From positions 1,862,001 to 1,926,000 of the forward strand of contig NZ_CP018155.1 in the NCBI RefSeq assembly GCF_001889045.1: 64,000 nucleotides of DNA. Reading direction: 5' to 3'. This document shows positions 24,977 to 62,302 of this stretch, piece by piece (position 1 is the first letter of the stretch; each line of letters opens with the position of its first letter). Both the position numbers and the translations under genes were made by a program. Below the pieces are notes generated by a model, which worked only from the letters and a program-made list of their open reading frames with translations, did no database searches and was not told the DNA's origin. The stretch comes from Tenacibaculum todarodis (GTDB lineage Bacteria > Bacteroidota > Bacteroidia > Flavobacteriales > Flavobacteriaceae).

Positions 24977-24998
24977 TACGTACGTATATTTACGTGTT
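24977..24998 (+). other. attI-like site at the integrase-proximal end of the array
   Basis: ACGTA-TATT-TACGT inverted repeat (24982-24995) lies directly beside G^TT at 24996/24997, where cassette 1 begins with TTGTGTAAC. Two inverted boxes beside the crossover resemble a tyrosine-recombinase core site. The crossover is fixed by the complement of cassette 1's first bases, found at 25397-25406. Confidence 0.65.
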
Positions 24999-25100
24999 GT
25001 GTAACATTAACAGCACGCAATCTGAACTAACAAAAGTTGAGGGCTTTTTAAACTTCTGAAAGCCTTAAACGAAAATAAAATATTAAAAAACCGAATAATT

Positions 25101-25229
25101 ATGAGCGCAAATATTATAACAAAAGTAGTGGTTAAAGGACTTGCAGCAGTTGCAGCATTAGCAGCAAGTGTGAGATTAGCAAAAGATGCTAATGCTGACA
25201 AAAATAAACTGAATAAAAAAACTGAATAA
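25101..25229 (+). CDS. Hypothetical 42-residue protein (cassette 1, first gene)
   Basis: ATG at 25101, stop at 25227-25229. The product begins MSANIITKVVVKG and continues with an Ala-rich stretch, LAAVAALAASVRLA, that could be one membrane helix, then a Lys/Asp/Asn tail. No family recognised. It is followed 4 bp later by a second small ORF, so cassette 1 is probably bicistronic. A hydrophobic helix with a charged tail would also suit a small membrane-active peptide (speculative). Confidence 0.5.
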   Translation: MSANIITKVVVKGLAAVAALAASVRLAKDANADKNKLNKKTE

Positions 25230-25233
25230 AATT

Positions 25234-25395
25234 ATGAATGAAGAAAAAAGCAGTTTGGAAAAAATTGAGAACTCTATTCTCGACAAACTAAACCCTAATC
25301 AAAAAATCGCATATGATTTAGGAGACAAAGGTGGAAGTTGGATAAGTAAAATGATTGACAAAGTTGTTGATTTTGTGATTCCTGAAAAAAAATAA
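25234..25395 (+). CDS. Hypothetical 53-residue protein (cassette 1, second gene)
   Basis: ATG at 25234 to TAA at 25393-25395, 4 bp after the preceding ORF. Contains KIENSILDKLNPNQKIAYDLG and an amphipathic WISKMIDKVVDFVIP segment. Not recognised. It ends 1 bp before the attC-like site of cassette 1, the usual position for a cassette gene. Confidence 0.5.
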   Translation: MNEEKSSLEKIENSILDKLNPNQKIAYDLGDKGGSWISKMIDKVVDFVIPEKK

Positions 25396-25396
25396 C

Positions 25397-25525
25397 GTTA
25401 CACAACAACGTATAAAAATAATTGCGGTTTTGTGCTAAAACAAAGGTAGTTGCGTGTTTGCTACATCTGATTTTCCTTCGGAAAATCCTCGCACGCAAAC
25501 CCGCAACTATTCTTATACAAAACCG
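25397..25525 (+). repeat. attC-like site of cassette 1
   Basis: Opens with GTTACACAAC, complement of the cassette 5' end at 24996. Inner arms GTAGTTGCGTGTTTGC / GCAAACCCGCAACTA enclose a GATTTTCC-TTCG-GGAAAATC-like hairpin. Closes at CCG^TTG. Confidence 0.85.
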
Positions 25526-25544
25526 TTGTGCGTCATTAAAACCA

Positions 25545-26066
25545 ATGAATACGATAAAAGCCGAAATAGATAAAAGTGACTACGGAACAGATGAATTTCT
25601 GAATCTGAAAATTGACGGATTTTGGCTTGACGAAAAACTCGAAGAACTTTATCCGAACAATATGTACAAAGGACTTTATCCAACTTTACTTTTTGCAATG
25701 GAAATAGCACAGGAGGAAAAAGTTGTTTGGAATAGAATTTTACCAAAGGTCGGAGAAATAGCAATTAGCCCAATTCTAATGTGTCCTGATGATAATGACT
25801 TTTCTTGCACTCTGATTTTGGCAGAAATTGAAAATTGTAAAAATACGATAAAGTGGAATAAATTAGGAATTGATAAAACGACAGAATATGACGCTGAAAA
25901 AGTTGGCTCAAAAGTTGAATGGTTTGAAAAAATAAGCGGATTTGAATTCTCAAAAGCTGATTATGAAAAGATGTTATCAGAATTTAAAAAGCATTATCTA
26001 ATAGAAAAAACGAATTGGGATAAACGGAATCCTGAATTTAAACAAAAAATACCGTTTGAAAAATAA
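25545..26066 (+). CDS. Hypothetical protein (cassette 2)
   Basis: 173 residues from the ATG at 25545 (MNTIKAEIDKSDYG), preferred to the in-frame ATG at 25422 because that one lies inside the attC-like site of cassette 1, before the cassette boundary at 25526. Soluble, acidic, no signal peptide; the region PILMCPDDNDFSCTLILAEIE is the most distinctive part. No family recognised; an immunity-type protein is possible from size and composition but unsupported. Confidence 0.75.
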   Translation: MNTIKAEIDKSDYGTDEFLNLKIDGFWLDEKLEELYPNNMYKGLYPTLLFAMEIAQEEKVVWNRILPKVGEIAISPILMCPDDNDFSCTLILAEIENCKNTIKWNKLGIDKTTEYDAEKVGSKVEWFEKISGFEFSKADYEKMLSEFKKHYLIEKTNWDKRNPEFKQKIPFEK

Positions 26067-26070
26067 CGAA

Positions 26071-26200
26071 CGCACAACACCGTGTATAATTAATTGCTTT
26101 GGTCATTGCTTATTTGGAAAATTCCTTCGGAATTTTCTCTGGCAAGTATTTGTTTACTAATTTAGTTGCTTAACCACGCAACTAACCATACACAATCACG
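26071..26200 (+). repeat. attC-like site of cassette 2
   Basis: Opens with CGCACAAC (complement of the cassette start TTGTGCG at 25526). Central hairpin AAAATTCC-TTCG-GGAATTTT; closes at CACG^TTG. Confidence 0.85.
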
Positions 26201-26223
26201 TTGTAAAACATTTAAAACGAACC

Positions 26224-27069
26224 TTGAGAATTCAAATTATCATACTGATTTTAATCGCAAATTTTGCTTTCGGACAAGAAAAAGTTACGATTGACAAAGA
26301 TATTGTAAAGTATGAAATTAAAGACGAATTCAACCGATTTGACAATATAGCTAACGAACTTAAAAGTTATAAAAGTTTAGATATAGAATCTAATGACAAG
26401 TCGAATATTAAAATTCTAAATAGATATAGTACAGGTTTTACTGGACACACTATTTCAATAATAATCGACAAAAAATTAAATGTAGTAAAAGCAAACTATG
26501 AATATTGGACGGATGTTGCAGAAATTGGAACGGAATACAAAGTAGATAGTATCGATTTGAAATTGAACCAAAATCCATTCGAAAAAATAAACGGTTTACG
26601 TGGACAATATACAATGCAAGTAAAAAAAGTTAGTTTAGATGGAGAACTATTAGAGAAAATAATATTCAAAGGAAAATTCAAAACTTTCAAAGGAATTGAT
26701 AAATCATCATCTGATTATTTATGGGCTTTGAAACAAAACAAAGTATTTTACGGAATAACAAATGAAAACGGAGTTTACTTGCGTCCGGATAAAATGCCTT
26801 CATTAAAATCTGACCATAAAATTCTGACCGAAAAAATAAAAAAAATTCAAGGCTATAAACCTGAAAAAATAAGAGCTTTCGTTATAATTAACGAAAAAGG
26901 GAAAATCGAAAAAGAACCATTTAGGTTTTTTGGAGAATTTAGAAAATTGAATAACGAAACACAAAAACAAGTTAAGGAATTGCTGATTGAATTTACTGAA
27001 TGGTATCCTGCTTGTGTAAATGAAAAAGAAGTTAAATCCCAAATTCCGATAGTAATTGGAATTAAATAA
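26224..27069 (+). CDS. Secreted hypothetical protein with TonB-C-like end (cassette 3)
   Basis: 281 residues from a TTG start at 26224, supported by the signal peptide that begins there (MRIQIIILILIANFAFGQ). The mature part is beta-rich. The C-terminus (FVIINEKGKIE ... LLIEFTEWYPAC ... SQIPIVIGIK) resembles the TonB C-terminal-like domain of many Bacteroidota secreted proteins. Function unknown. The gene starts 23 bp after the cassette boundary. Confidence 0.8.
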   Translation: MRIQIIILILIANFAFGQEKVTIDKDIVKYEIKDEFNRFDNIANELKSYKSLDIESNDKSNIKILNRYSTGFTGHTISIIIDKKLNVVKANYEYWTDVAEIGTEYKVDSIDLKLNQNPFEKINGLRGQYTMQVKKVSLDGELLEKIIFKGKFKTFKGIDKSSSDYLWALKQNKVFYGITNENGVYLRPDKMPSLKSDHKILTEKIKKIQGYKPEKIRAFVIINEKGKIEKEPFRFFGEFRKLNNETQKQVKELLIEFTEWYPACVNEKEVKSQIPIVIGIK

Positions 27070-27074
27070 AAAAC

Positions 27075-27203
27075 GTTTTACAACACCGTATATAATTTAT
27101 TGCTAGTTCTAGCCTACTTACGAAAATCCTCGCGGATTTTCTATTCGGTTTTTATTTGCTAAATTAGGTGCTTAAAACACGCAACAAACCATATACAACA
27201 ACG
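27075..27203 (+). repeat. attC-like site of cassette 3
   Basis: Opens with GTTTTACAAC (complement of cassette start). Hairpin GAAAATCC-TCGC-GGATTTTC. Nearly identical to the sites at 34570 and 46416. Confidence 0.87.
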
Positions 27204-27239
27204 TTGTGCAACATTTGAAAAAAAATCCGTGAAAAAAGA

Positions 27240-29225
27240 ATGATAGTAGAATTTTTAGGACAAGGCTTACATCTCGAAGAAGATGAAACGTGCGGAAATC
27301 ACGTTTGTTCTGCTATAAAAGACGAATCATTTACACAAATAACAATCTTTGTCGCATTTTTGAGAAAACCTGGTTTAGACTATTTAGCACCTTTCATAAA
27401 ACAAGCAAGAAAAGAAAATAGAAATGTAACTTTCTATGTTGGAATTGATGAAAGAGTTACATCAAAAGAGGCTCTCGAATTACTTTTAGAATTAGACACA
27501 GAAACGTACATTTATTATTCTGACAGTTACATTTACCATCCTAAAATTTACTTATTTGAAGGAGATAGAAATAGAATAATTACAGGTTCATCAAATCTTA
27601 CTAAATCAGGACTTTTTTATAACGTTGAGTCCTCAATCCTTTTGGACTTTACAAATACTGACAAAAGTGGATTAAAAATTATAAATCAGTTAAAAGAATT
27701 TTATTCTTCATTTTTCGATTTTAGCGACCCAAATCTGGAATTATTGACAAGTGAATACTTGAATAAACTTGTTCTTGAAGATAAAGTATCATCTGAAGAA
27801 TTTTCAAAAGGCTCTGACTACAATTCAAATATTCACGATAACTCAAAAAAAAGAGGTAGAAATCCGAAAATTACTGGTTTAGGTAATTTAGAAATCAAGG
27901 AAAAGAAACCGATTAAAAAGTATCAGTCAATACTAAAAATAACAGAAGATTATCTTGCGAAGTGGGATTATATGTTTAAAAAAATGGAACTTTTCTATAA
28001 AGAAAATGAACATTGTACAGTTCCAAGAGAATACAAAGACAGAACACTTTACGGTTGGTATAGTAAACAAAAACAATTATTTAAAGCTGGAATCTTACCT
28101 AAAGAACATTTAGAGAAATTAAAAACAATAAATTTCTATTTCGGAGATGCTCACGTATTGTATTGGGACAAAAAATGGCTCGACAGTTATAGTCAATTAT
28201 TAAAAGTCTATAAAGAAACAGGAGAAAGTAATGTAAAAAGATATAAAGATAATACTCATCCTCTTTTTTATATTTCAAATTGGGTTGCTTTGGAACGAGG
28301 AAAATATAAAAAAGGAAAACTAAAAGATTGGCAAATAGAAAAACTCGAAAAAATAGGTTTTAAATGGGAAATGGATGGAGTTAGGTCATTAAATAACGAA
28401 GATGATTGGCTCGATAAATTAGCACTTTTAGAACAATATAAAATAGAATTTGGAGATTGCAATGTTTCACAAACTTTTAAGAATCCTAAATACCCAAAAC
28501 TTGGTAAATGGTTAAATGACCAAAGAACATATTACAAAAAGAAAAGAGATTTTTTGAACGAGGAAAGAATTGTTCTTTTAGAAGATATGGGTGTTATTTG
28601 GGATATGGATGTTTATAATTTTGAACAAAGAATTAAAGAAATTCAAGAATACAAAAAAGAATTTGGAGATTTTAATATCCCATCAAATTACAAACCAAAT
28701 CCAAATCTTGGAAATTATGTTTATCGCATAAAAACAAAAGGAATTAAAGAAGATTGGAAAAAAGAAAAATTGCATCAAATTGGGTTCTTTGAAATTGGAA
28801 CGAAATCAAAAAAAGAAAAAGGCGGACATATTACACAGAATTGGTATAATAACTTAAACAAGTTAAAAAAATTAAAGAATCCAGATTTAAAAAAAGATAA
28901 TCTTGAATATCCTAAATTGGCTAAATGGCTTCATAACCAAAAAAGAACTTTTAGATATGGCAGACTAAAAGAAGAACAAATTAATGAACTAAAAAAGTTA
29001 AACATAAAACTTCCTGCAAGGAGTAAAAAAAGAAAAAAGTGGGATGAATATATTGAAATCATTGAACTTTTTAGAGAGGAATATGGAACAAAAGAAATTA
29101 CGTCTGAATTTGATAAAGAGATTTATATTTGGGTAAATCAGCAAAGAGCAAATTACAGAGCAAAAGCATTGAAAACTGAAAAAGTAGAAAAATTAAAAGA
29201 ATTAGGAATTATAGAAAGTGAATAA
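27240..29225 (+). CDS. PLD-like nuclease fused to helicase-associated (HA) repeats (cassette 4)
   Basis: 661 residues. An N-terminal phospholipase-D-superfamily domain (about 1-170) has the HxK-type motif in YHPKIYLFEGDRNRIITGSSNLTKSG, as in PLD-type nucleases of restriction and defence systems. From about residue 235 come at least four 60-75-residue units of the helicase-associated type (WDKKWLDSYSQLLKVYKETG ... WVALERGKYKKGKL ... IEKLEKIGFKWE). No helicase core is present. Probably a DNA-acting defence or genome-maintenance protein (inference). The ATG at 27240 is 36 bp past the cassette boundary. Confidence 0.82.
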   Translation: MIVEFLGQGLHLEEDETCGNHVCSAIKDESFTQITIFVAFLRKPGLDYLAPFIKQARKENRNVTFYVGIDERVTSKEALELLLELDTETYIYYSDSYIYHPKIYLFEGDRNRIITGSSNLTKSGLFYNVESSILLDFTNTDKSGLKIINQLKEFYSSFFDFSDPNLELLTSEYLNKLVLEDKVSSEEFSKGSDYNSNIHDNSKKRGRNPKITGLGNLEIKEKKPIKKYQSILKITEDYLAKWDYMFKKMELFYKENEHCTVPREYKDRTLYGWYSKQKQLFKAGILPKEHLEKLKTINFYFGDAHVLYWDKKWLDSYSQLLKVYKETGESNVKRYKDNTHPLFYISNWVALERGKYKKGKLKDWQIEKLEKIGFKWEMDGVRSLNNEDDWLDKLALLEQYKIEFGDCNVSQTFKNPKYPKLGKWLNDQRTYYKKKRDFLNEERIVLLEDMGVIWDMDVYNFEQRIKEIQEYKKEFGDFNIPSNYKPNPNLGNYVYRIKTKGIKEDWKKEKLHQIGFFEIGTKSKKEKGGHITQNWYNNLNKLKKLKNPDLKKDNLEYPKLAKWLHNQKRTFRYGRLKEEQINELKKLNIKLPARSKKRKKWDEYIEIIELFREEYGTKEITSEFDKEIYIWVNQQRANYRAKALKTEKVEKLKELGIIESE

Positions 29226-29229
29226 AAAC

Positions 29230-29358
29230 GTTGCACAACACCGTATAAAATTAATTGCTGGTTTCAGCCAATTTACGAAAGTCCTTGCGGACTTTCTATC
29301 TGTGATTTATTTGCTAACTTTAGTGCTTAAAACACGCAACTAATCTTATACAAACACG
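29230..29358 (+). repeat. attC-like site of cassette 4
   Basis: Opens with GTTGCACAAC, complement of GTTGTGCAAC at 27203. Hairpin GAAAGTCC-TTGC-GGACTTTC: the A-T pair of other sites is changed to G-C on both arms. Confidence 0.87.
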
Positions 29359-29399
29359 TTGTAAGTAATTTAAGCCAAAATACTGAATTTCAATAAACA

Positions 29400-30407
29400 A
29401 TGAAAAATAAATTTGTAATTATCATTTTAATATTTGTATCATTTAATGTTCATTCTCAAATAAAAAAATCTGAATTAGAATCACGTGCAGGAATTCAATA
29501 CGAAATAGGAAAAGAAAATCCATACACTGGAAAAGTATATACTTATTATGACAATAACGAAAAAGAATCTCTCGCTGAATTTAAAAACGGAATACTAAAT
29601 GGAGAAATAAAAAACTGGTATTTAAATGGAAAATTACAAGTTTCAGGAAAAATGTTAAATGGAGAAAAAGATGGAATTTGGATTGCTTGGTTTGCTAACG
29701 GAAATAAAATTAGAGAAGGAAAATATATAAATAATAAAGAAGAGGGAAATTTTAAATGGTGGTTTGAAAACGGAAAAATAAAAAAGGAAGGAATCTATAA
29801 AAATGGAGTCACAAATGGCAAATGGACTTGGTATTTTGAAAATGGAGAAAAAGAATCCGAGGGTAAATTACTAAACGATAGAAATATAGGTAAATGGTTT
29901 TGGTGGAATGAAAGAGGAGAACTAATACACGAAAAAGATTTTTCAAATCAAGAAAACGAATTGAAATTTAAAAATTTAGAACAATTAATCATTGGAAAAT
30001 GGGAATATATAAAAACCGTTGACAAAGAGAGTAATTCGATTCAACATACTATTAGAAAGTATCCAAATGGAGAAGAAATGAAAATTATTGCAAGTGGACC
30101 AGATATTACCATAAATAAAGATGGAACTTATGAGAAAAAATTCACTGAAAATAATACAGATTATGGAAATTGGAAATTTATTTCAGAAAAAGAAATTGAA
30201 TATGAAATGTTTATTGCTCGAGATTCAAGACAAGGAAAATTAATAGTTCAAACTCAAAAATTGTTACCGAATAAAAAATGGAGACAAGATGAAAATGGCA
30301 ATTTTCTTGATGCATCATCTGACAAAATAATTGGAATAACAGAAAACGAAATGAAAGTTGAATATGAGAAAGATTACGTATTAATTTATAAAAAAAAGTC
30401 TGAATAA
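29400..30407 (+). CDS. Secreted YwqK/MORN-like repeat protein with lipocalin-like C-terminus (cassette 5)
   Basis: 335 residues: signal peptide (FVIIILIFVSFNVHSQ), then about six repeats of roughly 23 residues, residues 45-195, with the pattern NG-x-x-x-G-x-W-x-x-W-F-x-N-G-K-x-x-x-E-G (MORN_2/YwqK type), then LIIGKWEYIKTVDKESNS resembling a lipocalin-like domain. YwqK is an antitoxin in the B. subtilis LXG system, but in Bacteroidota such repeats are common in secreted proteins of unknown role. A much larger relative is in cassette 10. Confidence 0.82.
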   Translation: MKNKFVIIILIFVSFNVHSQIKKSELESRAGIQYEIGKENPYTGKVYTYYDNNEKESLAEFKNGILNGEIKNWYLNGKLQVSGKMLNGEKDGIWIAWFANGNKIREGKYINNKEEGNFKWWFENGKIKKEGIYKNGVTNGKWTWYFENGEKESEGKLLNDRNIGKWFWWNERGELIHEKDFSNQENELKFKNLEQLIIGKWEYIKTVDKESNSIQHTIRKYPNGEEMKIIASGPDITINKDGTYEKKFTENNTDYGNWKFISEKEIEYEMFIARDSRQGKLIVQTQKLLPNKKWRQDENGNFLDASSDKIIGITENEMKVEYEKDYVLIYKKKSE

Positions 30408-30411
30408 AAAC

Positions 30412-30540
30412 TACTTACAACACCGTGTATAATTCATTGCTAGCACTCGCCTACTTACGAAAATCCTCGCGGATTTTCTATTCAGTTTTTATTTGCTAAA
30501 TTAGGTGCTCAAACACGCAACGAAATCATACACAATCACG
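30412..30540 (+). repeat. attC-like site of cassette 5
   Basis: Opens with TACTTACAAC (complement of GTTGTAAGTA at 29358). Hairpin GAAAATCC-TCGC-GGATTTTC; closes at CACG^TTG. Confidence 0.87.
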
Positions 30541-30565
30541 TTGTACACTATTTACGAAAAAAACT

Positions 30566-31144
30566 ATGAAAAGACTGATTTTACTGATTATTTTTCTTTC
30601 AACATTATTCTCTTATTCACAGGAATTTATAAAATGTAAAGACTCAATAAATTACCTTTATATAAAAAACAATAATTATCATTCTTATCTGAAAGTAGAA
30701 GGAAAATTAGAAAAAACTGAAAATCCAAAAGTCTTCAAATTAGGTGACTATATCTTGCAAACCTTATTAATAGAAAAAAATAAATTTAATAAAGGAAAAG
30801 ACAATGAAATTGAAATTATTGTGAATTATATATTGAAAGAATCTGAATATCTTACAAGTGTCTATAAGTCTAAATTGGACTTAAATTTTGTACCTATTGA
30901 ATTAGAGAAAAATAAAAAAGCTGTTTTATGGTTTTTTAAAATACCAGAAGAATTTAAGAAAAATATAAATGAACCAATAAAAGCTGAAAGACAAGTATTT
31001 GTTTCGAGATTAACAGAAGAATTCATTTATTCAATCGCATCAACACAATTTGAAAATCAAAGTTTTGAGAAAATAAAGGAAATTTTGGGCGAATTAATAA
31101 AATCTGTTGAATATGGAAAAGTGAAAGAAGAAATTTGTAATTAA
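30566..31144 (+). CDS. Secreted hypothetical protein (cassette 6)
   Basis: 192 residues with a clear signal peptide (MKRLILLIIFLSTLFSYSQ). The mature part is lysine-rich and mixed alpha/beta, with AVLWFFKIPEEFKKN centrally. No family recognised. Starts 26 bp after the cassette boundary and ends 4 bp before its attC. Confidence 0.75.
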   Translation: MKRLILLIIFLSTLFSYSQEFIKCKDSINYLYIKNNNYHSYLKVEGKLEKTENPKVFKLGDYILQTLLIEKNKFNKGKDNEIEIIVNYILKESEYLTSVYKSKLDLNFVPIELEKNKKAVLWFFKIPEEFKKNINEPIKAERQVFVSRLTEEFIYSIASTQFENQSFEKIKEILGELIKSVEYGKVKEEICN

Positions 31145-31148
31145 AAAC

Positions 31149-31278
31149 AGTGTACAACACCGTATAAACTTTATTGCTAGTTATAGCTCACTTGGGAAAT
31201 TCCTCCGGAATTTCAACGTTCGTGTTTTATTTGCTAAATTTAATGCTTAAACCACGCAACAAAGCTTATACATAAACG
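31149..31278 (+). repeat. attC-like site of cassette 6
   Basis: Opens with AGTGTACAAC (complement of GTTGTACACT at 30540). Hairpin GAAATTCC-TCC-GGAATTTC, another compensated variant. Confidence 0.87.
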
Positions 31279-31354
31279 TTAGCTGTAATTGAAAAAAAAC
31301 TCGAACTAACATAAAACTCATATTTTATATATTTAAAAACAGATATTAAATTCC

Positions 31355-33097: not shown

Positions 33098-33121
33098 TAA
33101 CAAAAACATTGCGAAAACAAC

Positions 33122-33252
33122 TACAGCTAACACCGTGTATAATTAATTGCTTTGTAAGTACTCATCTGGAATATTCCTTCGGAATATTCTTAGGTTCGTA
33201 AAAGTTTACTAATTTAGTTGCTTAACCACACAACTAATCATACACAAACACG
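33122..33252 (+). repeat. attC-like site of cassette 7
   Basis: Opens with TACAGCTAAC (complement of GTTAGCTGTA at 31278). Hairpin GAATATTCC-TTC-GGAATATTC. The right arm CATACACAAACACG^TT is an unoccupied copy of the IS110 target. Confidence 0.87.
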
Positions 33253-33284
33253 TTGCCAGTAATTAAAAAAAACGAAAGAGAAAT

Positions 33285-53469: not shown

Positions 53470-53634
53470 ATGGGATGCAATACCTTCGGTCTTTTGCATC
53501 CCATCGCCGCGCGGCTTCGCCGATGACATGCGCAGCCCTTCGGGACTGCACACATCATCGGCTAAATTCAATTTTTGAAATTGAAAAATACTGCGTATCT
53601 TCCAATTTCAAAAACTAAATTTAGCCTCGCGGCG
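53470..53634 (+). repeat. ORF-less mini-cassette, copy 4
   Basis: Identical to the other copies; flanked by ACCG and TTAGCACCA. Confidence 0.87.
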
Positions 53635-53665
53635 TTAGCACCAATTTGAAAATTAACAAGAAAAT

Positions 53666-54760: not shown

Positions 54761-54765
54761 AAAAC

Positions 54766-54895
54766 TGGTGCTAACACCGTATAAACTTTATTGCTGGTTT
54801 TAGCTCACTTGAGAAATTCCTCCGGAATTTCGCCGTTCGTGTTTTATTTAGTAAATTCACTGCTTAAACAACGCAACAAAGCTTATACAACAACG
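54766..54895 (+). repeat. attC-like site of cassette 26
   Basis: Opens with TGGTGCTAAC (complement of GTTAGCACCA at 53634). Nearly the same body as attC 12 (43505). Confidence 0.87.
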
Positions 54896-54908
54896 TTGCC
54901 CACAATTT

Positions 54909-55799
54909 ATGAAAATCATCAATTATATAATAATTCTGCTTTTAATTGGAACTTCTTGTAAGGGAAAACCAAAATCTGAAATTATAAAGACGGACGAATT
55001 TGAATTAATCAAAGCCGAAAACCAAAAAGGATTATTGATTTTATTTCCTTGTTTCCCTTGTGATGCAGAAAACACATTATCTGAATTTAAAATTACGGAA
55101 ATCAGTTTGGAAAATGACTTTTCGGTTTTAGCAATGAACTTGAATCAACGACTATTTTTAAGACAAATTGAAAAACAAAAAATAGCAGAACAATTGGAAA
55201 GTATAATTACTAAAAACCAACTATCAAAGGAAAATATATTTATAGGTGGTTTTTCAAGTGGCGGAAATGTAAGTCTGTTAATTAGCGATTACCTTGTGGA
55301 GAGCAAAAGTCTAATTGAACCTAAAGGCGTTTTTATAGTAGACTCGCCAATTGACCTTTTAGCACTCTATAAAACTGCTAAAAAGAATTTAGAATTGAAC
55401 TTTTCCGAGCCATCTATTCAAGAAGCAAAGTGGATTAAAGAGTTTTTTGACAATGAGTTTGGAAATCCAAAAAATGGAATAGTCAATTATGAAAATAACT
55501 CACCTTTTACTTATGAAACACAAAATATCAGTAATTTAAAAGGATTACAAAATTTAAAAATCAGATTATATACAGAACCTGACTTGAAATGGTGGAAAGA
55601 AAACCGAAAAAACGATTTTGAAGATTTAAATGCTTTTTACATTGAAAAAGTATCAGACAAATTAAAATCTGAATTTGGAAACAAAAATATCGAATTAATA
55701 AAAACAGAGAACAAAGGCTATCGAGCAAATGGAGAAAGACATCCACATTCTTGGGCGATTGTTAACGAAAAAGATTTGATAAAATGGATGACGGAATAA
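54909..55799 (+). CDS. Secreted alpha/beta-hydrolase-like lipoprotein (cassette 27)
   Basis: 296 residues. Lipoprotein signal (MKIINYIIILLLIGTSCKGK). The core has FIGGFSSGGNVSLL, a G-x-S-x-G nucleophile elbow, preceded by LLILFPCFPCDAENT. A late HSWAIV supplies a possible catalytic histidine. Substrate unknown. Confidence 0.78.
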   Translation: MKIINYIIILLLIGTSCKGKPKSEIIKTDEFELIKAENQKGLLILFPCFPCDAENTLSEFKITEISLENDFSVLAMNLNQRLFLRQIEKQKIAEQLESIITKNQLSKENIFIGGFSSGGNVSLLISDYLVESKSLIEPKGVFIVDSPIDLLALYKTAKKNLELNFSEPSIQEAKWIKEFFDNEFGNPKNGIVNYENNSPFTYETQNISNLKGLQNLKIRLYTEPDLKWWKENRKNDFEDLNAFYIEKVSDKLKSEFGNKNIELIKTENKGYRANGERHPHSWAIVNEKDLIKWMTE

Positions 55800-55803
55800 A
55801 AAC

Positions 55804-55926
55804 TGTGGGCAACACCGTGTATAATTAATTGCTTGGTTTTAGCTTATTTACGAAAGTCCTCGCGGACTTTCTATCAGTGATTTATTTGCTACCTTTAGTG
55901 CATAAACCACGCAACTAATCATACAC
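55804..55926 (+). repeat. attC-like site of cassette 27, left part (interrupted by IS110)
   Basis: Opens with TGTGGGCAAC (complement of GTTGCCCACA at 54895). Hairpin GAAAGTCC-TCGC-GGACTTTC. Continues at 57154-57160; total 130 bp. Confidence 0.85.
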
Positions 55927-55966
55927 GTATTCCAAGATCAAATCCTAATAAAATTTAGTTTTTATT

Positions 55967-56959
55967 TTAAGCAGCATAATTTTGAAGAACAACATATGGT
56001 GTTCCTCTTTTAACAACTGCAAATGCTCTTGCTATTAGTTTGTTTCTCACATTATTTATCGCCAACATTTTATCTTTTCCTTCTGCCAACTTTTTTTGAT
56101 AATACAACTTTAACTCACTATCATGTTGTATTGCAGAAACACTTGCCATACTCAATAAACTTTTCATCTTTCTGTCTCCTAAATAATGACATTGTTTTCG
56201 CCTGTGAATGCTGGTGCCAGAACGATGCTCAAAAGGTGCAGTTCCACAATAACTGGAAAAAGCACGCCAACTTTTAAAACGGGTAAAGTTACCTGTATGA
56301 TAAATTAATTGGCAAGCAACGACCAAACCAATTCCTTTCATACTTTTTAGTAATTCGTAATTTTTACTCATAGAAACATCATCAAAAATGATTTCTTCAA
56401 TTCTAATTTCTATAGATTTTACTTGTTTAGACAAATAGTCAATACTACGCTTTAAACTGATACAACCTAAATCTGTTGTAGAACTTGTTAAAAGTACTTT
56501 CATCTCTTTTAAAGTGCCTTTTAAACCTGCATTATTTCGAACTAATTGATCTCTTAAAGCTAACAGTCTACCAAGTTCTAAATGAGAACTGCTTTTTACT
56601 GTACTCGGCATTAACTCTTCTCTGTAAAACCAACCATACTTTGCTATTACTTGAGCATCTAGCTTATCTGTTTTCTCTTTTACAATCCCAGAAGAACGCT
56701 TAATTTTTAACGGACTCTCCTCAACATAAACAACTTTCTTACTATGGAAATAAAGTGCCAACTTTAATGAATAATAACCTGTGTTCTCAAAACAATAAAA
56801 AACAGCACTTTCTTTTGTCTGTTTTAAAACCCATTTTAAGAGACTTTTGTAACCAGCTATATCGTTCTTAAACTCTTGGTGAACTTGAGCATGATAACAA
56901 TAGGCATCAATCGTCTTTTTTGATACATCTATTCCTACTACTTCTCTGTAATTTTTCAT
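55967..56959 (-). CDS. IS110-family transposase (copy 2)
   Basis: 330 residues, the same protein as the 39692-40684 copy, with the DEDD RuvC-like residues and the C-terminal HRSGTS serine intact. The identity indicates very recent copying. Confidence 0.95.
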   Translation of the reverse strand: MKNYREVVGIDVSKKTIDAYCYHAQVHQEFKNDIAGYKSLLKWVLKQTKESAVFYCFENTGYYSLKLALYFHSKKVVYVEESPLKIKRSSGIVKEKTDKLDAQVIAKYGWFYREELMPSTVKSSSHLELGRLLALRDQLVRNNAGLKGTLKEMKVLLTSSTTDLGCISLKRSIDYLSKQVKSIEIRIEEIIFDDVSMSKNYELLKSMKGIGLVVACQLIYHTGNFTRFKSWRAFSSYCGTAPFEHRSGTSIHRRKQCHYLGDRKMKSLLSMASVSAIQHDSELKLYYQKKLAEGKDKMLAINNVRNKLIARAFAVVKRGTPYVVLQNYAA

Positions 56960-57153
56960 ATTTTTACAATTAGAATGATTAAATATGTTGCAAAAACTAC
57001 TTCCTTTATCGGGTTTTTATAATCCTGGTATTCCAAATGGTTCTTTGCAACTTTATAGGAACTGAGGACTCGTACGTGTAAGGGAACTGCAATTCTAAAA
57101 CACGTTATAGTTCTCCTCCTTTCCTATATAAAGATATTTAATACAAACTAAAG
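56960..57153 (-). ncRNA. Candidate bridge RNA region of IS110 copy 2
   Basis: Same sequence as in copy 1: target-like AAACACGTT at 57098-57106 and donor-like GTATTCCAA at 57028-57036. Confidence 0.58.
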
Positions 57154-57160
57154 AAACACG
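57154..57160 (+). repeat. attC-like site of cassette 27, right part
   Basis: AAACACG^TTACC, end of the split site; cassette 28 begins at 57161. Confidence 0.8.
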
Positions 57161-57179
57161 TTACCATACATACGCCAAA

Positions 57180-57656
57180 ATGCCCAAAATTGAACTTCAA
57201 ACTGAAATAAAAGCTGATAGAAAAGTTGTATTTGACCTTTCGAGAAGTATCGATTTACACAAAATTTCCACTGAACAAACTAATGAAGAAGCAATCGCTG
57301 GAAAAACAAGCGGATTAATTGGAATGGATGAAAGCGTAACGTGGAGAGCTAAACATTTTGGAATCTACCAAAAACTGACTTCCAAAATAACGGAATTTGA
57401 CCGACCAAATTTCTTTGTGGACGAAATGGTTAAAGGAGCATTTAAAGAATTTAAACACGAACATCACTTTGCGGAATTGAATAACGGAACTTTGATGACT
57501 GATATTTTTGAGTATAATTCACCTTTTGGAATATTAGGAAAGATTGCAGACAAACTATTCCTTAAAAAATATATGACTGAATTACTGACCGAACGAAATA
57601 GAGTTGTAAAAGAGTTTGCGGAATCTGAAAAATGGAAAGAAATAATAAATGAATAA
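57180..57656 (+). CDS. SRPBCC/START-like ligand-binding protein (cassette 28)
   Basis: 158 residues with the polyketide-cyclase-type SRPBCC pattern: IELQTEIKADRKVVFDLSRSIDLH at the N-terminus, VTWRAKHFGIYQKLTSKITEFDRPNFFVDEMVKGAFKEFKHEHHF, and a closing long helix (MTELLTERNRVVKEFAES). A hydrophobic pocket for a small ligand is expected; the substrate is unknown. Similar proteins are common in Bacteroidota. Confidence 0.85.
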   Translation: MPKIELQTEIKADRKVVFDLSRSIDLHKISTEQTNEEAIAGKTSGLIGMDESVTWRAKHFGIYQKLTSKITEFDRPNFFVDEMVKGAFKEFKHEHHFAELNNGTLMTDIFEYNSPFGILGKIADKLFLKKYMTELLTERNRVVKEFAESEKWKEIINE

Positions 57657-57661
57657 AGTAC

Positions 57662-57792
57662 GTATGGTAACAACGTGTATAAAAAATTGCGTAGTTTAGT
57701 GCTTAACCAAAGTCAGTTGCATTTTTGTTACGTCTGATTTTCCTTCGGAAAATCAGACGTAACAAAAACGCAACTTTCCATACACAAAACCG
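57662..57792 (+). repeat. attC-like site of cassette 28
   Basis: Opens with GTATGGTAAC (complement of GTTACCATAC at 57160). Contains a long perfect hairpin: GTTACGTCTGATTTTCC and its complement around TTCG; closes at ACCG^TTAG. Confidence 0.87.
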
Positions 57793-57806
57793 TTAGCAAC
57801 AACTAA

Positions 57807-58610
57807 ATGACGACAACGACAGCAACATTTACAGGAATAAAAAAGAAAATTCAAGAACAAATTGAAAAATCAAAAAGCTCAATTAAAATTTCTGTTGCGT
57901 GGTTTACAAGTAAAGATTTATTAGGTCAATTAATTGATAAAGTTGAAAATGGGTGTCAAGTTGAAATAATAATAAGTGACAATATTGAAAATAAGAGATT
58001 ATCATTTGATAAATTTATTAAACTTGGAGGTAAAGTTTTTATAATGCAAACAAGGAGCGGGAAATTTCTGCACGATAAATTTGCAGTTTTTGATGAAAAT
58101 AAGCTAATTGCTGGTTCTTATAATTGGACAAATTCAGCTGAATATTATAATCACGAATTCATTATACAAAGTGAGGAAAATATATTGTTGAAACAATTCA
58201 ATATTAGATTTAAAAACTTAAAAGAAATTGTTACAAATTATGACCAATTAATACTATCAAGTAAATCCGAATTATTAGCAGACACGAAAGAAACCGAATT
58301 TCTAAAACTTGAGAATGAATTAGAAGAACGATTTATGGAAACTATAAAAGAAGCTAATGATTTAGGTGCGAAAATTAATTCAAATAACATTATTTCATAT
58401 ATTCATAATTATGGAGCAATTGGAGGAGCTTCAAGATTAATTAATTTAGGAACCGAAAAATTACAATCAGGATTTATAAAACTTTGGGAAATAAAAAGAT
58501 TAGACATAAGTTTTGAAAGTATAATTCTTCAGGAAAAATATAGAATACTATTTAGTAAAGAAATTTTAGAAAAAGCTGAAAAAAGATTAAAAAAATTAGA
58601 AGGGAAATAA
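57807..58610 (+). CDS. PLD-like domain protein (cassette 29)
   Basis: 267 residues. The phospholipase-D-type domain (about 1-120) has KIQEQIEKSKSSIKISVAWFTS and HDKFAVFDENKLIAGSYNWTNSAEYYNHE (H-x-K...G-S-x-N). A single HKD motif implies dimerisation, as in Nuc-type nucleases. The C-terminal half is helical (NELEERFMETIKEANDLGAKIN). Nuclease function inferred. ATG 14 bp after the cassette boundary. Confidence 0.83.
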   Translation: MTTTTATFTGIKKKIQEQIEKSKSSIKISVAWFTSKDLLGQLIDKVENGCQVEIIISDNIENKRLSFDKFIKLGGKVFIMQTRSGKFLHDKFAVFDENKLIAGSYNWTNSAEYYNHEFIIQSEENILLKQFNIRFKNLKEIVTNYDQLILSSKSELLADTKETEFLKLENELEERFMETIKEANDLGAKINSNNIISYIHNYGAIGGASRLINLGTEKLQSGFIKLWEIKRLDISFESIILQEKYRILFSKEILEKAEKRLKKLEGK

Positions 58611-58616
58611 AAAGCA

Positions 58617-58746
58617 GTTGCTAACACCGTATATAATTTATTGCTGGCTTCTTACCTACTTGCGAAAGTCCTCGCGGACTTTCTTTGTCGGTAATTATTT
58701 ACTAAATTAGTTGCTTGAAACACTCAACAAACCATATACAACAACG
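58617..58746 (+). repeat. attC-like site of cassette 29
   Basis: Opens with GTTGCTAAC (complement of GTTAGCAAC at 57792). Hairpin GAAAGTCC-TCGC-GGACTTTC. Confidence 0.87.
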
Positions 58747-58769
58747 TTGTAAACAATTTAAGACGAACA

Positions 58770-59273
58770 TTGAGGAAAATAATAAAATACGGATTTTTGA
58801 CTTTTGCATTAGTGGTTTTTGGCTGTAACGGAGCTGATTATTACAATCTCGGAATTTACCAAGCAAGACAAGGAAATCAAGAAAAAGCAATAGAATATTT
58901 CACAAAAGCGATAGAAGTTAATCCTAAAGATGCAGACGCATATTATAATCGAGCTTACGCACAACACTTATTAGGTGGAAAGGAAAAGCAAACAATTTCT
59001 GATTACTCAAAATCTTTAGAACTAAATCCAAATGACAACGAAGCTCATATGAATCGTGGACTTATTTATATGAAAATGGGAAATAATGAAAAAGCAATTT
59101 CTGATTACAAAGAGTCAATCCGAATTAATCCTAATTATTCAATTGTATATGGAAATTTAGGAAATGCATACAAACTGAAATTAGATAATGAAAAGGCTTG
59201 TGAGAATTGGAAAAAATCTTTGGAATTAGGAAACGAAAATGTCCGACCAAGAATAAAAATGAATTGTGAATAA
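58770..59273 (+). CDS. Tetratricopeptide-repeat lipoprotein (cassette 30)
   Basis: 167 residues from a TTG at 58770, supported by the lipoprotein signal (FLTFALVVFGCNG). Three to four TPR units follow: YYNLGIYQARQGNQEKAIEYFTKAIEVNP, AYYNRAYAQHLLGGK..., AHMNRGLIYMKMGNNEKAISDYKESIRINP, YGNLGNAYKLKLDNEKACENWKKSLEL. Protein-protein interaction role at the membrane; partner unknown. Confidence 0.85.
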   Translation: MRKIIKYGFLTFALVVFGCNGADYYNLGIYQARQGNQEKAIEYFTKAIEVNPKDADAYYNRAYAQHLLGGKEKQTISDYSKSLELNPNDNEAHMNRGLIYMKMGNNEKAISDYKESIRINPNYSIVYGNLGNAYKLKLDNEKACENWKKSLELGNENVRPRIKMNCE

Positions 59274-59278
59274 AAAAC

Positions 59279-59407
59279 TGTTTACAACAACGTGTATAAT
59301 TCATTGCTAGTTATAGCCTACTTACGAAAGTCCTCGCGGACTTTCTACCTGTGATTTATTTGCTAACTTTAGTGCTTAAACACGCAACGAAATCATACAC
59401 AAACACG
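59279..59407 (+). repeat. attC-like site of cassette 30
   Basis: Opens with TGTTTACAAC (complement of GTTGTAAACA at 58746). Joined to mini-cassette 5 at CACG. Confidence 0.87.
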
Positions 59408-59572
59408 ATGGGATGCAATACCTTCGGTCTTTTGCATCCCATCGCCGCGCGGCTTCGCCGATGACATGCGCAGCCCTTCGGGACTGCACACATCATCGGC
59501 TAAATTCAATTTTTGAAATTGAAAAATACTGCGTATCTTCCAATTTCAAAAACTAAATTTAGCCTCGCGGCG
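59408..59572 (+). repeat. ORF-less mini-cassette, copy 5
   Basis: Identical to the other copies; flanked by CACG and TTGGCAAAC. Confidence 0.87.
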
Positions 59573-59604
59573 TTGGCAAACATTAAAAACCGAAAATAAA
59601 CTAA

Positions 59605-60147
59605 ATGGGATTTGGATTTAATCTTGGAATGATTTTCATAATACTTCCTCTGACTTTAATACTTTTTTTATTAGGAGCAATTACAAAAAAAGGAGGGTTT
59701 TTTAAAGCTATTGGTTGTATTTGGATTCCAATATTGTGCCTGATTGGACTTTCTGTAATTATGAGCATATTTCCTGACACAAGTGTTCTTGAAAAAGAAG
59801 ATTATTATGGAGAATATATAATTGACCGAAATTTTTTCAAAGGAAAACAAGCTGATTGGCAATACAACCATTTTAGAATGGAAATAACTGAAAACGATTC
59901 GATTTTTCTTTACACAATGGAAAATGGAAAAATAATTTCGATAAACAAAGGAACAATATCAACAGTAAAACCATATAGTTCTGAAAGACTCGTTCTAAAA
60001 ATGAATGAGCCTAATCACCATATTACTGAAACAAACCCGACAACTTATCGAAAAAGTTGGTGGAATTTTTATTTAGTTTTTAAATCTAAAAAGTTTCATA
60101 ATATGTATTTTAGAAAAGGAAAATGGGAAAAAATAAAAACTGAATAA
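59605..60147 (+). CDS. Hypothetical membrane protein (cassette 32)
   Basis: 180 residues. Two hydrophobic segments near the N-terminus (MIFIILPLTLILFLLGAI; AIGCIWIPILCLIGLSVIM), then a soluble beta-rich domain (YYGEYIIDRNFFKGKQADWQYNHFRMEITENDSIFLYTM). No family recognised. Confidence 0.75.
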   Translation: MGFGFNLGMIFIILPLTLILFLLGAITKKGGFFKAIGCIWIPILCLIGLSVIMSIFPDTSVLEKEDYYGEYIIDRNFFKGKQADWQYNHFRMEITENDSIFLYTMENGKIISINKGTISTVKPYSSERLVLKMNEPNHHITETNPTTYRKSWWNFYLVFKSKKFHNMYFRKGKWEKIKTE

Positions 60148-60152
60148 AAACG

Positions 60153-60274
60153 ATTTGCCAACACCGTGTATATTTTATTGCTTTCTTTTAGCCAACTTAC
60201 GAAAATCCTCTCGGATTTTCTATTCAGTAATTATTTGCTAACTTTACGCTAAACCAACGCAACAAAGCATACAC
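60153..60274 (+). repeat. attC-like site of cassette 32, left part (interrupted by IS110)
   Basis: Opens with ATTTGCCAAC (complement of GTTGGCAAAC at 59572 with one outer mismatch). Hairpin GAAAATCC-TCTC-GGATTTTC. Continues at 61502-61508; total 129 bp. Confidence 0.83.
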
Positions 60275-60314
60275 GTATTCCAAGATCAAATCCTAATAAA
60301 ATTTAGTTTTTATT

Positions 60315-61307
60315 TTAAGCAGCATAATTTTGAAGAACAACATATGGTGTTCCTCTTTTAACAACTGCAAATGCTCTTGCTATTAGTTTGTTTCTCACAT
60401 TATTTATCGCCAACATTTTATCTTTTCCTTCTGCCAACTTTTTTTGATAATACAACTTTAACTCACTATCATGTTGTATTGCAGAAACACTTGCCATACT
60501 CAATAAACTTTTCATCTTTCTGTCTCCTAAATAATGACATTGTTTTCGCCTGTGAATGCTGGTGCCAGAACGATGCTCAAAAGGTGCAGTTCCACAATAA
60601 CTGGAAAAAGCACGCCAACTTTTAAAACGGGTAAAGTTACCTGTATGATAAATTAATTGGCAAGCAACGACCAAACCAATTCCTTTCATACTTTTTAGTA
60701 ATTCGTAATTTTTACTCATAGAAACATCATCAAAAATGATTTCTTCAATTCTAATTTCTATAGATTTTACTTGTTTAGACAAATAGTCAATACTACGCTT
60801 TAAACTGATACAACCTAAATCTGTTGTAGAACTTGTTAAAAGTACTTTCATCTCTTTTAAAGTGCCTTTTAAACCTGCATTATTTCGAACTAATTGATCT
60901 CTTAAAGCTAACAGTCTACCAAGTTCTAAATGAGAACTGCTTTTTACTGTACTCGGCATTAACTCTTCTCTGTAAAACCAACCATACTTTGCTATTACTT
61001 GAGCATCTAGCTTATCTGTTTTCTCTTTTACAATCCCAGAAGAACGCTTAATTTTTAACGGACTCTCCTCAACATAAACAACTTTCTTACTATGGAAATA
61101 AAGTGCCAACTTTAATGAATAATAACCTGTGTTCTCAAAACAATAAAAAACAGCACTTTCTTTTGTCTGTTTTAAAACCCATTTTAAGAGACTTTTGTAA
61201 CCAGCTATATCGTTCTTAAACTCTTGGTGAACTTGAGCATGATAACAATAGGCATCAATCGTCTTTTTTGATACATCTATTCCTACTACTTCTCTGTAAT
61301 TTTTCAT
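60315..61307 (-). CDS. IS110-family transposase (copy 3)
   Basis: 330 residues, same protein as the other two copies, all catalytic motifs intact. It lies between the PLD/TPR end of the array and the last cassette. Confidence 0.95.
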   Translation of the reverse strand: MKNYREVVGIDVSKKTIDAYCYHAQVHQEFKNDIAGYKSLLKWVLKQTKESAVFYCFENTGYYSLKLALYFHSKKVVYVEESPLKIKRSSGIVKEKTDKLDAQVIAKYGWFYREELMPSTVKSSSHLELGRLLALRDQLVRNNAGLKGTLKEMKVLLTSSTTDLGCISLKRSIDYLSKQVKSIEIRIEEIIFDDVSMSKNYELLKSMKGIGLVVACQLIYHTGNFTRFKSWRAFSSYCGTAPFEHRSGTSIHRRKQCHYLGDRKMKSLLSMASVSAIQHDSELKLYYQKKLAEGKDKMLAINNVRNKLIARAFAVVKRGTPYVVLQNYAA

Positions 61308-61501
61308 ATTTTTACAATTAGAATGATTAAATATGTTGCAAAAACTACTTCCTTTATCGGGTTTTTATAATCCTGGTATTCCAAATGGTTCTTTGCAACT
61401 TTATAGGAACTGAGGACTCGTACGTGTAAGGGAACTGCAATTCTAAAACACGTTATAGTTCTCCTCCTTTCCTATATAAAGATATTTAATACAAACTAAA
61501 G
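61308..61501 (-). ncRNA. Candidate bridge RNA region of IS110 copy 3
   Basis: Same sequence as in copies 1 and 2: AAACACGTT at 61446-61454 and GTATTCCAA at 61376-61384. Confidence 0.58.
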
Positions 61502-61508
61502 AAACACG
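61502..61508 (+). repeat. attC-like site of cassette 32, right part
   Basis: AAACACG^TTG, end of the split site; the last cassette begins at 61509. Confidence 0.8.
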
Positions 61509-61542
61509 TTGTAAAACATTTAAAAAAAAACCGAAAACTGAA

Positions 61543-61995
61543 TTGAAAAAAGGAACTTTAATAATAATTTCGTTTGTATTGATTATACTTTCCTTTTGGC
61601 TCGGAATGAAAGTTGAGCGTGAATTAGCAAGTTGGGACGAAATCGGAAAACCAGTATTTGAAAAGGAACAGATTTACTTTCCGAATAAAAAAACCTTTCT
61701 TTATCTGAAAAGCAAAAATTGGGGATTGACTGCTGACCATAAAATTTCTGTTATTTCGACAAAGTCAGACCTTGAATTTCAACCTGACTCAATATCTGAA
61801 TATATTTTTCAAGGCTTTGGAGGAATAATATACAAAGTGGAAAATAATACTCTGAAAATCTACTCGCATCAAAAACCGAAAATTCCATCGAAATTTGAAT
61901 CAGAAATAAACGTGGAATTAATAGAAGTTAAGAATAATTCGGAATGGAATAAAATGAAGGAAAACATAAACAACAATTATCAAGAATTTGAATAA
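61543..61995 (+). CDS. Hypothetical membrane-anchored protein (cassette 33, first gene)
   Basis: 150 residues from a TTG at 61543, supported by the N-terminal anchor (LIIISFVLIILSFWLGM). The soluble part has FLYLKSKNWGLTADHKISVIST. No family recognised. Followed 2 bp later by a second small membrane gene. Confidence 0.72.
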   Translation: MKKGTLIIISFVLIILSFWLGMKVERELASWDEIGKPVFEKEQIYFPNKKTFLYLKSKNWGLTADHKISVISTKSDLEFQPDSISEYIFQGFGGIIYKVENNTLKIYSHQKPKIPSKFESEINVELIEVKNNSEWNKMKENINNNYQEFE

Positions 61996-61997
61996 AA

Positions 61998-62282
61998 ATG
62001 ATTCCAACAGATAGCGAATTTACGACTCTTTATATCGCATATTTATTAATGCTAATGTTTTTGATATTTGGTTTATTAAAATCAAAAAATAAAGCATTCT
62101 ACAAATGGAATTTTCTTTTTTTTGGAATCTATTTAGCAATAATGATTTATGTTTTTTCAGATTCAGAAAATTTCAGATATGGTAATTCACTTGTTGTCTT
62201 GTTTTATGGAGGAATATTTGTGCTTTTACACTTTATTATAATAGGAGTTATAAAACTATATAAATTAGTAATAAAAAAATAA
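61998..62282 (+). CDS. Hypothetical small membrane protein (cassette 33, second gene)
   Basis: 94 residues with three hydrophobic segments (LYIAYLLMLMFLIFGLL, WNFLFFGIYLAIMIYVF, LVVLFYGGIFVLLHFIIIGVI). Not recognised. Two base pairs after the preceding gene, so co-transcribed; the pair is the last cargo of the array. Confidence 0.7.
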   Translation: MIPTDSEFTTLYIAYLLMLMFLIFGLLKSKNKAFYKWNFLFFGIYLAIMIYVFSDSENFRYGNSLVVLFYGGIFVLLHFIIIGVIKLYKLVIKK

Positions 62283-62286
62283 AAAC

Positions 62287-62302
62287 GTTTTACAACACCG
62301 TA
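62287..62302 (+). repeat. Truncated attC-like site closing the array
   Basis: GTTTTACAAC (complement of GTTGTAAAAC at 61508) plus ACCGTA, after which the sequence departs from the attC pattern. The distal end of the array therefore lacks a complete site. Confidence 0.75.

Follow-up and report, generated by a model that had tools for sequence, protein, structure and literature searches.

A chromosomal cassette array in Tenacibaculum todarodis with integron-like organisation and an adjoining tyrosine recombinase that lacks the I2 domain

Organisation of the locus

We analysed a stretch of 64,000 nucleotides from the chromosome of Tenacibaculum todarodis (contig NZ_CP018155.1, positions 1,862,001 to 1,926,000; hereafter the window, whose coordinates are used unless the chromosome is named). 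The window is part of a genome of 3,019,213 bp in a single contig, and the host bacterium is probably marine. A preliminary description of this DNA had claimed a one-directional array of integron-like units at 24997..62302. Such an array is indeed present, with its right end at about 62302. Adjoining it are two features that were absent from that description, a tyrosine recombinase gene and an attI. The three main features of the locus are as follows.

23762-24829, minus strand: tyrosine recombinase gene (355 amino acids), divergent from the array, product without an I2 domain
24982-24998, plus strand: attI, ACGTATATTTACGTG^TT, with the crossover at 24996/24997; conserved in relatives and abutted by predicted cassette starts
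24997 to about 62302, plus strand: cassette array with plus-strand genes, starting at the crossover 24996/24997; the last site, near 62303, is incomplete

Cassettes are delimited by their own arms

In all 28 cassettes of the array, the first 8-10 bases (beginning at G^TT) read as the reverse complement of the R'' arm in the cassette's own site. At six informative positions, R' and R'' of the same cassette matched in 167 of 168 comparisons, against a permuted mean of 70.1 (standard deviation 7.6; maximum 95 in 2000 permutations). As a control, R'' was compared with the start that follows the same site, and here a mean of 2.6 of the six positions agreed (27 comparisons). Complementarity inside one cassette is the pattern expected from excision of a circle at G^TT. 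The arm matches set the boundaries independently of gene prediction. The 33 units counted originally are replaced by the 28 cassettes listed here, each given with its coordinates and strand, the position of its site, the length of the R'/R'' match and, where there is one, a remark on its content (ORF, open reading frame).

Cassette 1: 24997-25525, plus; site 25401-25528; 10 nt; no ORF of at least 80 amino acids wholly inside
Cassette 2: 25526-26200, plus; site 26073-26203; 9 nt
Cassette 3: 26201-27203, plus; site 27079-27206; 10 nt
Cassette 4: 27204-29358, plus; site 29234-29361; 10 nt; PLDc_2 and helicase-associated repeats
Cassette 5: 29359-30540, plus; site 30416-30543; 10 nt; MORN repeats
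Cassette 6: 30541-31278, plus; site 31153-31281; 10 nt
Cassette 7: 31279-33252, plus; site 33126-33255; 10 nt
Cassette 8: 33253-34697, plus; site 34574-34700; 10 nt; Swt1-like HEPN
Cassette 9: 34698-36199, plus; long site 36011-36202; 9 nt
Cassette 10: 36200-38786, plus; long site 38597-38789; 10 nt
Cassette 11: 38787-40885, plus; site from 39534, split by an IS110-family element; 10 nt; UbiE-type methyltransferase
Cassette 12: 40886-43634, plus; site 43509-43637; 10 nt; five ORFs of at least 80 amino acids
Cassette 13: 43635-45126, plus; long site 44772-44964, then the 165-bp insert; 9 nt; HSDR_N-like / PDC-S57-like
Cassette 14: 45127-45772, plus; site 45648-45775; 10 nt
Cassette 15: 45773-46706, plus; site 46418-46544, then the 165-bp insert; 8 nt; ParE-type toxin with an upstream ORF
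Cassette 16: 46707-47604, plus; site 47478-47607; 10 nt
Cassette 17: 47605-48118, plus; site 47992-48121; 10 nt; no ORF of at least 80 amino acids
Cassette 18: 48119-49099, plus; site 48810-48937, then the 165-bp insert; 10 nt; leucine-rich repeats
Cassette 19: 49100-50591, plus; long site 50402-50594; 10 nt; MauJ/DzbB-like
Cassette 20: 50592-51358, plus; site 51233-51361; 10 nt
Cassette 21: 51359-53634, plus; site 53345-53472, then the 165-bp insert; 10 nt; AAA_15 ATPase (best PADLOC match AriA; also OLD/GajA-like)
Cassette 22: 53635-54895, plus; site 54770-54898; 10 nt
Cassette 23: 54896-57160, plus; site from 55808, split by an IS110-family element; 10 nt; lipase match below cut-off
Cassette 24: 57161-57792, plus; site 57666-57795; 10 nt; polyketide_cyc-like
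Cassette 25: 57793-58746, plus; site 58620-58749; 9 nt; PLD-like (DrmC-like)
Cassette 26: 58747-59572, plus; site 59283-59410, then the 165-bp insert; 10 nt; TPR protein
Cassette 27: 59573-61508, plus; site from 60157, split by an IS110-family element; 9 nt
Cassette 28: 61509-62303, plus; site breaks off after R'' (AAC at 62294); 10 nt

The sites are palindromic and the uninterrupted ones end at CG^TT, as had been noted; their lengths, given earlier as 128-194 bp, are 127-131 bp (16 sites) or 192-193 bp (3 sites) when only uninterrupted ones are measured. These 19 are part of a set of 27 complete sites; in five of the others a GC-rich insert of 165 bp sits precisely at the crossover, and the remaining three contain an IS110-family element. 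The 28th ends after R'' and a few more bases.

Most cassette genes belong to no Pfam family. Those that could be recognised encode a ParE-type toxin, an AriA/OLD-like ATPase, PLD proteins near DrmC, a HEPN protein, a methyltransferase and repeat proteins; PADLOC was applied to 10 of the 32 cassette ORFs. The gene of cassette 24 has a full-length homologue, 71% identical, in a platform of a second recombinase clade (locus L080, genome G056; see below), where it lies directly 3' of the integrase and is followed by a site.

The inserts themselves can be described further. Transposase genes of the three IS110-family elements lie at 39692-40684 (the copy matched against NCBIfam), 55967-56959 and 60315-61307. 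These elements break their three sites at the same point, and the other two copies differ from the first at 1 and 4 positions over 1255 nt; they form a natural set for reading the target choice of an RNA-guided transposase. The 165-bp element is present in five identical copies (44961-45125, 46541-46705, 48934-49098, 53469-53633 and 59407-59571). It begins with ATGGGATGCAA and has a matching arm, TTGCATCCCAT, 13 bases on, and for this reason looks like a gene-less mini-cassette, one that starts with AT and not with TT. A sixth, near-identical copy stands alone in a compact hairpin target at chromosome positions 488455-488618, and pieces of the element follow two solo sites.

The sites are predicted to form bottom-strand hairpins

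We aligned the 16 window sites of 127-131 bp for an analysis of their stems. Folded as the bottom strand, they share a 23-pair stem with compensatory change at 10 pairs, and the bottom strand had the more stable fold in 18 of the 19 uninterrupted sites. Stem pairs counted on this strand in the 16 sites included 88 G.T and 6 A.C. With their inverted core sites, their bottom-strand hairpin and an R'/R'' complementarity that would be restored in the circle, the sites have the features of a canonical attC. They do not share the position of its extrahelical bases, which in the classical case sit on the R''-L'' arm (PMC2727003, in the portion consulted). By folding prediction, bulges on that arm occur in none of the 16 window sites and, among relatives, in 12 of 143 and 4 of 113 sites; the L'-R' arm has predicted bulges in 9 of 16, 98 of 143 and 76 of 113, respectively. 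Because such bulges are absent or rare and the recombinase has no I2 domain (see below), the strand would probably be chosen in a different way from that in known integrons.

The folds also bear on a reading without any recombination system, according to which the palindromes are terminators, RNA elements or dispersed repeats spread by homologous recombination. It would agree with their position between same-direction genes and with an Rfam scan at gathering scores, which found no match for them and hence gave them no RNA identity. Yet G.T pairs on the bottom strand become A.C mismatches in a transcript, which argues against an RNA role; the arm match lies within cassettes and not within sites (28 of 28); and the position of the crossover, G^TT next to a conserved attI, is fixed. 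This reading is already contradicted by these data, and we give it next to no credence.

A conserved attI separates the recombinase gene from the first cassette

As in canonical integrons, an attI with a G^TT insertion point lies beside the recombinase gene. We predicted the start of the first cassette in related loci from the R'' arm of the first site alone; only G^TT was forced by the search and the attI sequence was not used. A start was found at 39 of the 41 loci with a usable first site, and at 33 of the 41 it lay at a distance of 123-183 bp from the gene and immediately followed a conserved attI resembling C[GA]TATAT[AT]TANGTG. Eight of the ten columns from -11 to -2 carry 1.3-2.0 bits (34 rows including the window). 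At three loci (L109, L154 and L157), inspection by eye showed elements that start with ATG and have a matching arm, placed at the attI crossover instead of a TT-type cassette; these may represent another class of mini-cassette.

Six Arenibacter loci (15 pairs) illustrate how abruptly conservation ends at the crossover. Their integrases are 84-97% identical and the spacer up to G^TT 84-100%, while the next 70-300 bases are 43-51% identical (47% in one shuffle), that is, the first cassettes are unrelated. Thus, as in canonical integrons, the co-oriented array differs between close relatives, here at the level of species. The preliminary description had named an identical cassette order in related strains as evidence against its proposal, and for first cassettes the comparison gave the opposite result.

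Two further features lie between the recombinase gene and the array.

24830-24900: region upstream of the integrase start; in many relatives it holds an inverted repeat (ATTTTGTATATCA...TGATATACAAAAT), degenerate in the window
24939-24970, plus strand: candidate array promoter, TTTG-N20-TATTTTTG, of the Bacteroidetes -33/-7 type

The best arm of the inverted repeat is at least 12 nt long in 20 of 33 rows, counted without a shuffle control and without the window, and the arms measure 12-16 nt; a possible role is that of an operator or of accessory binding sites. The candidate promoter follows the Bacteroidetes -33/-7 consensus. Convincing to the eye, its pattern occurs in the window at chance frequency (4 against 4.7 expected), and TANNTTTG is weakly enriched in relatives (11 of 61 regions, against a shuffled mean of 3.8 and maximum of 12).

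Related recombinases adjoin arrays of the same type in many genera

A covariance model built from the 16 window sites only recovered all 27 complete sites of the array (16 of them by construction). Homologues of the recombinase at E 1e-60 are present in 69 of 199 genomes of the host's family (own genome included), where similar platforms are common; among these genomes, nine others have full-length orthologs, 62-67% identical, one with two stops. Within the genus, 43 of 58 genomes have a homologue at E 1e-40. In 19 of 20 stretches examined around homologues of both clades, the model found sites at E 0.01, 168 in total and on a single strand in each stretch. Eight ortholog stretches with sites have the divergent layout of the window; in 11 stretches of the second clade (recombinases 35-47% identical), the cassettes lie downstream and in the same direction as the integrase. 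Applied to 150 of the 168 sites, the arm test gave a match at five or more of six positions in 103 of 127 testable cassettes, compared with 8 of 145 same-site comparisons.

When named genomes were scanned, 301 relatives were obtained; the best 80 served as ortholog loci. They come from Psychroserpens, Winogradskyella, Tenacibaculum, Arenibacter, Maribacter, Chryseobacterium, Flavobacterium covae and columnare, Parapedobacter, Sphingobacterium and others. At E 0.001 the model found 115 sites at 42 of these loci (42 of the 64 that have at least 500 bp upstream), every one of them upstream of the integrase and on one strand, although 749 kb had been searched downstream and 340 kb upstream. The covariance search proposed in the preliminary description thus finds sites beside related recombinases in many genera. 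That description had also asked whether such sites occur equally at non-cassette places. They do not at the 80 loci, where none of the 115 lies on the non-cassette side; elsewhere in the T. todarodis genome there are 14. These are matches of at least 51 bits outside the window, four weak ones (E 0.9 or worse) being left out. Nine of them have a matching cassette start upstream and end what look like solo cassettes; for the other five a start was not found. For eight of the nine solo cassettes, the start coincides with the end of a compact hairpin half-site, TTCGCTAAC...ATTAAAAC...G (with variants, among them TTCGTTAAC and TTTGTTAAC), whose intact right flanks continue TTAGCGAA or TTAAACGAA.

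Some further observations concern these solo sites. A search with an exact pattern shows four unoccupied hairpins, compact and attC-like, each 52-54 nt long and with the loop ATTAAAAC (chromosome 1579872, 2875809, 1405621 and 1423361); at other places in this genome, similar ones are occupied by solo cassettes. All five solo sites at 0.24-0.64 Mb are on one strand and all nine at 0.87-2.08 Mb on the other; dnaA lies at 0.32 Mb, and the GC skew is too noisy for placing the replichores.

Another possibility is mobilisation of the array in trans, by XerC/XerD or by an IntI that escaped detection, with the adjacent gene as a bystander. XerC- and XerD-like genes are present in the genome (the two other homologues at E 1e-10, 31% and 27% identical to the recombinase), and Xer serves other elements too. 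However, the genome has no TIGR02249 match at E 1e-55, orthologs adjoin arrays of the same type in a fixed orientation in many genera, the related clade does likewise in its other layout, and at 33 of the 41 usable loci the first cassette begins within 123-183 bp of the gene. We regard mobilisation in trans as very unlikely.

A recombinase without I2 that falls outside the IntI clade

The recombinase has a Phage_integrase domain, and Y337 is its presumed catalytic tyrosine. Its best NCBIfam match is NF040815 (XerA type; 210.9 bits, cut-off 220), which begins at residue 86, after an N-terminal extension; the second, TIGR02249 (IntI), reaches 195.7 bits in two stretches, under the cut-off of 265. 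Residues 208-246 of the chain in PDB 2a3v have no counterpart in it. This structure, listed as IntI4, we take to be the V. cholerae integron integrase. Correspondingly, a region of about 42 residues present in all 11 aligned IntI proteins (from 20 loci) is missing from the window protein, and none of 47 aligned homologues has an I2-type insert (48 loci were given; L089 has no sufficiently long ORF). The additional, IntI-specific I2 domain is named as defining for integron integrases in the consulted part of PMC9668308.

In a midpoint-rooted tree of 59 rows, none of them XerA, the window clade (100/100) and IntI (100/100) each formed one group, and no I2-less row fell within IntI. All I2-less rows came together with support of only 91/83, the tree does not show the second clade to be a single group, and I2-less rows and IntI were set apart from XerC/XerD (100/99). 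The recombinase thus has no I2 domain, stays below the TIGR02249 cut-off and lies outside the IntI clade. These defining features having been tested and not found, the platform is not an IntI integron. The preliminary description, which read the locus with the grammar of mobile integrons, is supported: a G^TT crossover, R''-L''-hairpin-L'-R' sites and co-oriented cassettes are seen in the window and in relatives. It needs qualifying for the enzyme, which is no IntI.

Could this be a canonical integron whose IntI secondarily lost I2, so that the whole clade descends from IntI? The separation from XerC/XerD points that way, as does TIGR02249, the second-best NCBIfam match of the window protein and the best for the relative L034, and an array-type site is found in the normal position at a canonical-IntI locus, L233 (65 bits). 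On the other side, IntI is a clade of its own with all I2-less rows outside, NF040815 outscores the IntI profile for the window protein, and at 20 canonical-IntI loci (of 49 places) no array-type site was found within 1.5 kb at E 1. The midpoint root, the 91/83 support and the lack of XerA rows mean that these points only weaken such a loss, which we consider improbable. Somewhat favoured, in our judgement, is that Bacteroidota have a second kind of integron, whose recombinases never had I2 or have dispensed with it and would act on folded sites without the usual extrahelical bases.

Neighbouring genes

Outside the platform, the following genes were identified.

21445-23670: PNPase gene, preceding the recombinase gene
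beyond the right end of the array: DUF6266 and DUF6943 genes

An S15-Flavobacteria ribosomal leader at 20931-20995, before a small gene 5' of the PNPase gene, is the only match of the Rfam scan of the window and lies outside the array.

Discussion

At the level of sequence, the data demonstrate the cassette boundaries, the R'/R'' signature, a conserved attI followed by first cassettes that differ between species, a constant side and strand of arrays relative to the recombinase, and the bottom-strand bias of the stems. Very probably, the locus captures cassettes into the chromosome in the manner of an integron, with a different class of tyrosine recombinase. The enzyme encoded at 23762-24829 (minus strand) would act on the adjacent attI (G^TT, 24996/24997) and on the folded cassette sites. 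Recombination between two sites would excise a cassette as a circle, and the circle's site would fold, as the bottom strand, into a hairpin, the single strand being the putative substrate. The R arm of this hairpin would be perfect because R' and R'' derive from one cassette. Insertion of the hairpin at attI would then leave the cassette gene pointing away from the integrase.

Several observations weigh against this interpretation. Six of the 39 predicted starts fall at a distance of 1.2-6 kb, outside attI, and the array promoter, which would be Pc-like, is a candidate and not established. In relatives, 24 of 127 cassettes fail the arm test, for which intervening missed sites are a likely, not a demonstrated, cause. 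The wider count of stem pairs (1341 G.T against 132 A.C over 294 distinct sites) is biased upwards, since most of these sites were found with a model of the bottom strand. At E 0.001, 38 of the 80 ortholog loci have no site (16 with less than 500 bp upstream and 22 more); among nine larger stretches of the ortholog clade, L068 has none at E 0.01 and L065 one weak match. Across the phylum, a sample of 395 genomes yielded a site at E 1e-5 in only 56, no more than 8 candidates being scored in each genome. Nor is this type of site fully exclusive: of eight larger canonical-IntI loci, L233 carries the one site beside IntI mentioned above, and a second locus has three weak ones. Finally, no recombination product (circle, junction or rearranged strain) was seen in these genomes, which are one per species.

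Canonical integrons are already known in Bacteroidota. In our sample, 46 of 148 genomes of the phylum have an IntI above the curated cut-off, 45 of them outside the host's class and none in its family. Searches of plasmid and phage sequences at E 1e-20 gave 519 and 47 records, with less than 60% identity among the matches listed. The suggestion that the platform may be undescribed agrees with the open-access literature, where no description of it appeared among the matches listed (bioRxiv preprints and most subscription papers lie outside this scope). In the portions consulted, a survey of recombinases reports that the insertion is 'not fully conserved' in an integron-like subgroup, yet essential for integron function (PMC8138268), so that I2-less proteins may already sit in that subgroup; a theoretical account holds that the gain of I2 let a Xer-like enzyme recombine single-stranded attC, and that intermediates are lacking (PMC7790495). 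IntegronFinder calls an integrase only when the I2 profile matches as well (PMC9668308, part consulted). With IntegronFinder 2.0, the consulted part of PMC10013915 records no integrons in a Tenacibaculum genome of another species, which may truly lack one, and the consulted part of PMC8352920 gives 11 taxon models of attC, none for Bacteroidota. Platforms such as this one may therefore be overlooked by searches that require I2.

A natural platform with cassette grammar, no I2 and few or no bulges makes the claim that gaining I2 opened single-stranded attC to a Xer-like enzyme directly testable. If the interpretation is correct, single-strand cassette capture evolved twice or predates I2, cassette platforms are common in a family where I2-requiring searches detect none, and many Bacteroidota draw on a large pool of mobile cassettes that no survey has covered; some genes of the window array are defence-like by PADLOC.

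Among the closest known systems are the sedentary chromosomal integrons, such as the Vibrio cholerae superintegron, with their divergent recombinase, adjacent attI, co-oriented cassettes, G^TT and bottom-strand hairpins. Toxin-type and gene-less cassettes occur there too. The R'/R'' self-pairing of 8-10 nt is near the 9-11 nt of most classical cassettes (PMC2727003, portion consulted). Unlike in those integrons, the recombinase is without I2 and under the IntI cut-off, R''-L'' bulges are absent or rare, and the type of site is not found within 1.5 kb of the 20 canonical IntI loci, with one larger locus having one. The second I2-less clade, with its integrase co-directional with downstream cassettes, resembles the Treponema integrons; those are of the IntI type, as far as the consulted part of PMC3607928 goes, and the window's own clade is divergent. 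The three near-identical IS110-family elements within array sites recall the IS1111-attC group of insertion sequences, with the difference that here they occupy sites of an I2-less platform. With XerA-type recombinases the enzyme shares its best NCBIfam match, NF040815, which NCBI names 'site-specific tyrosine recombinase/integron integrase', and a catalytic domain without I2. Xer proteins resolve dimers by acting on double-stranded dif-type sites; unlike theirs, the recombinase gene described here is an extra, array-linked one whose product bears an N-terminal extension.

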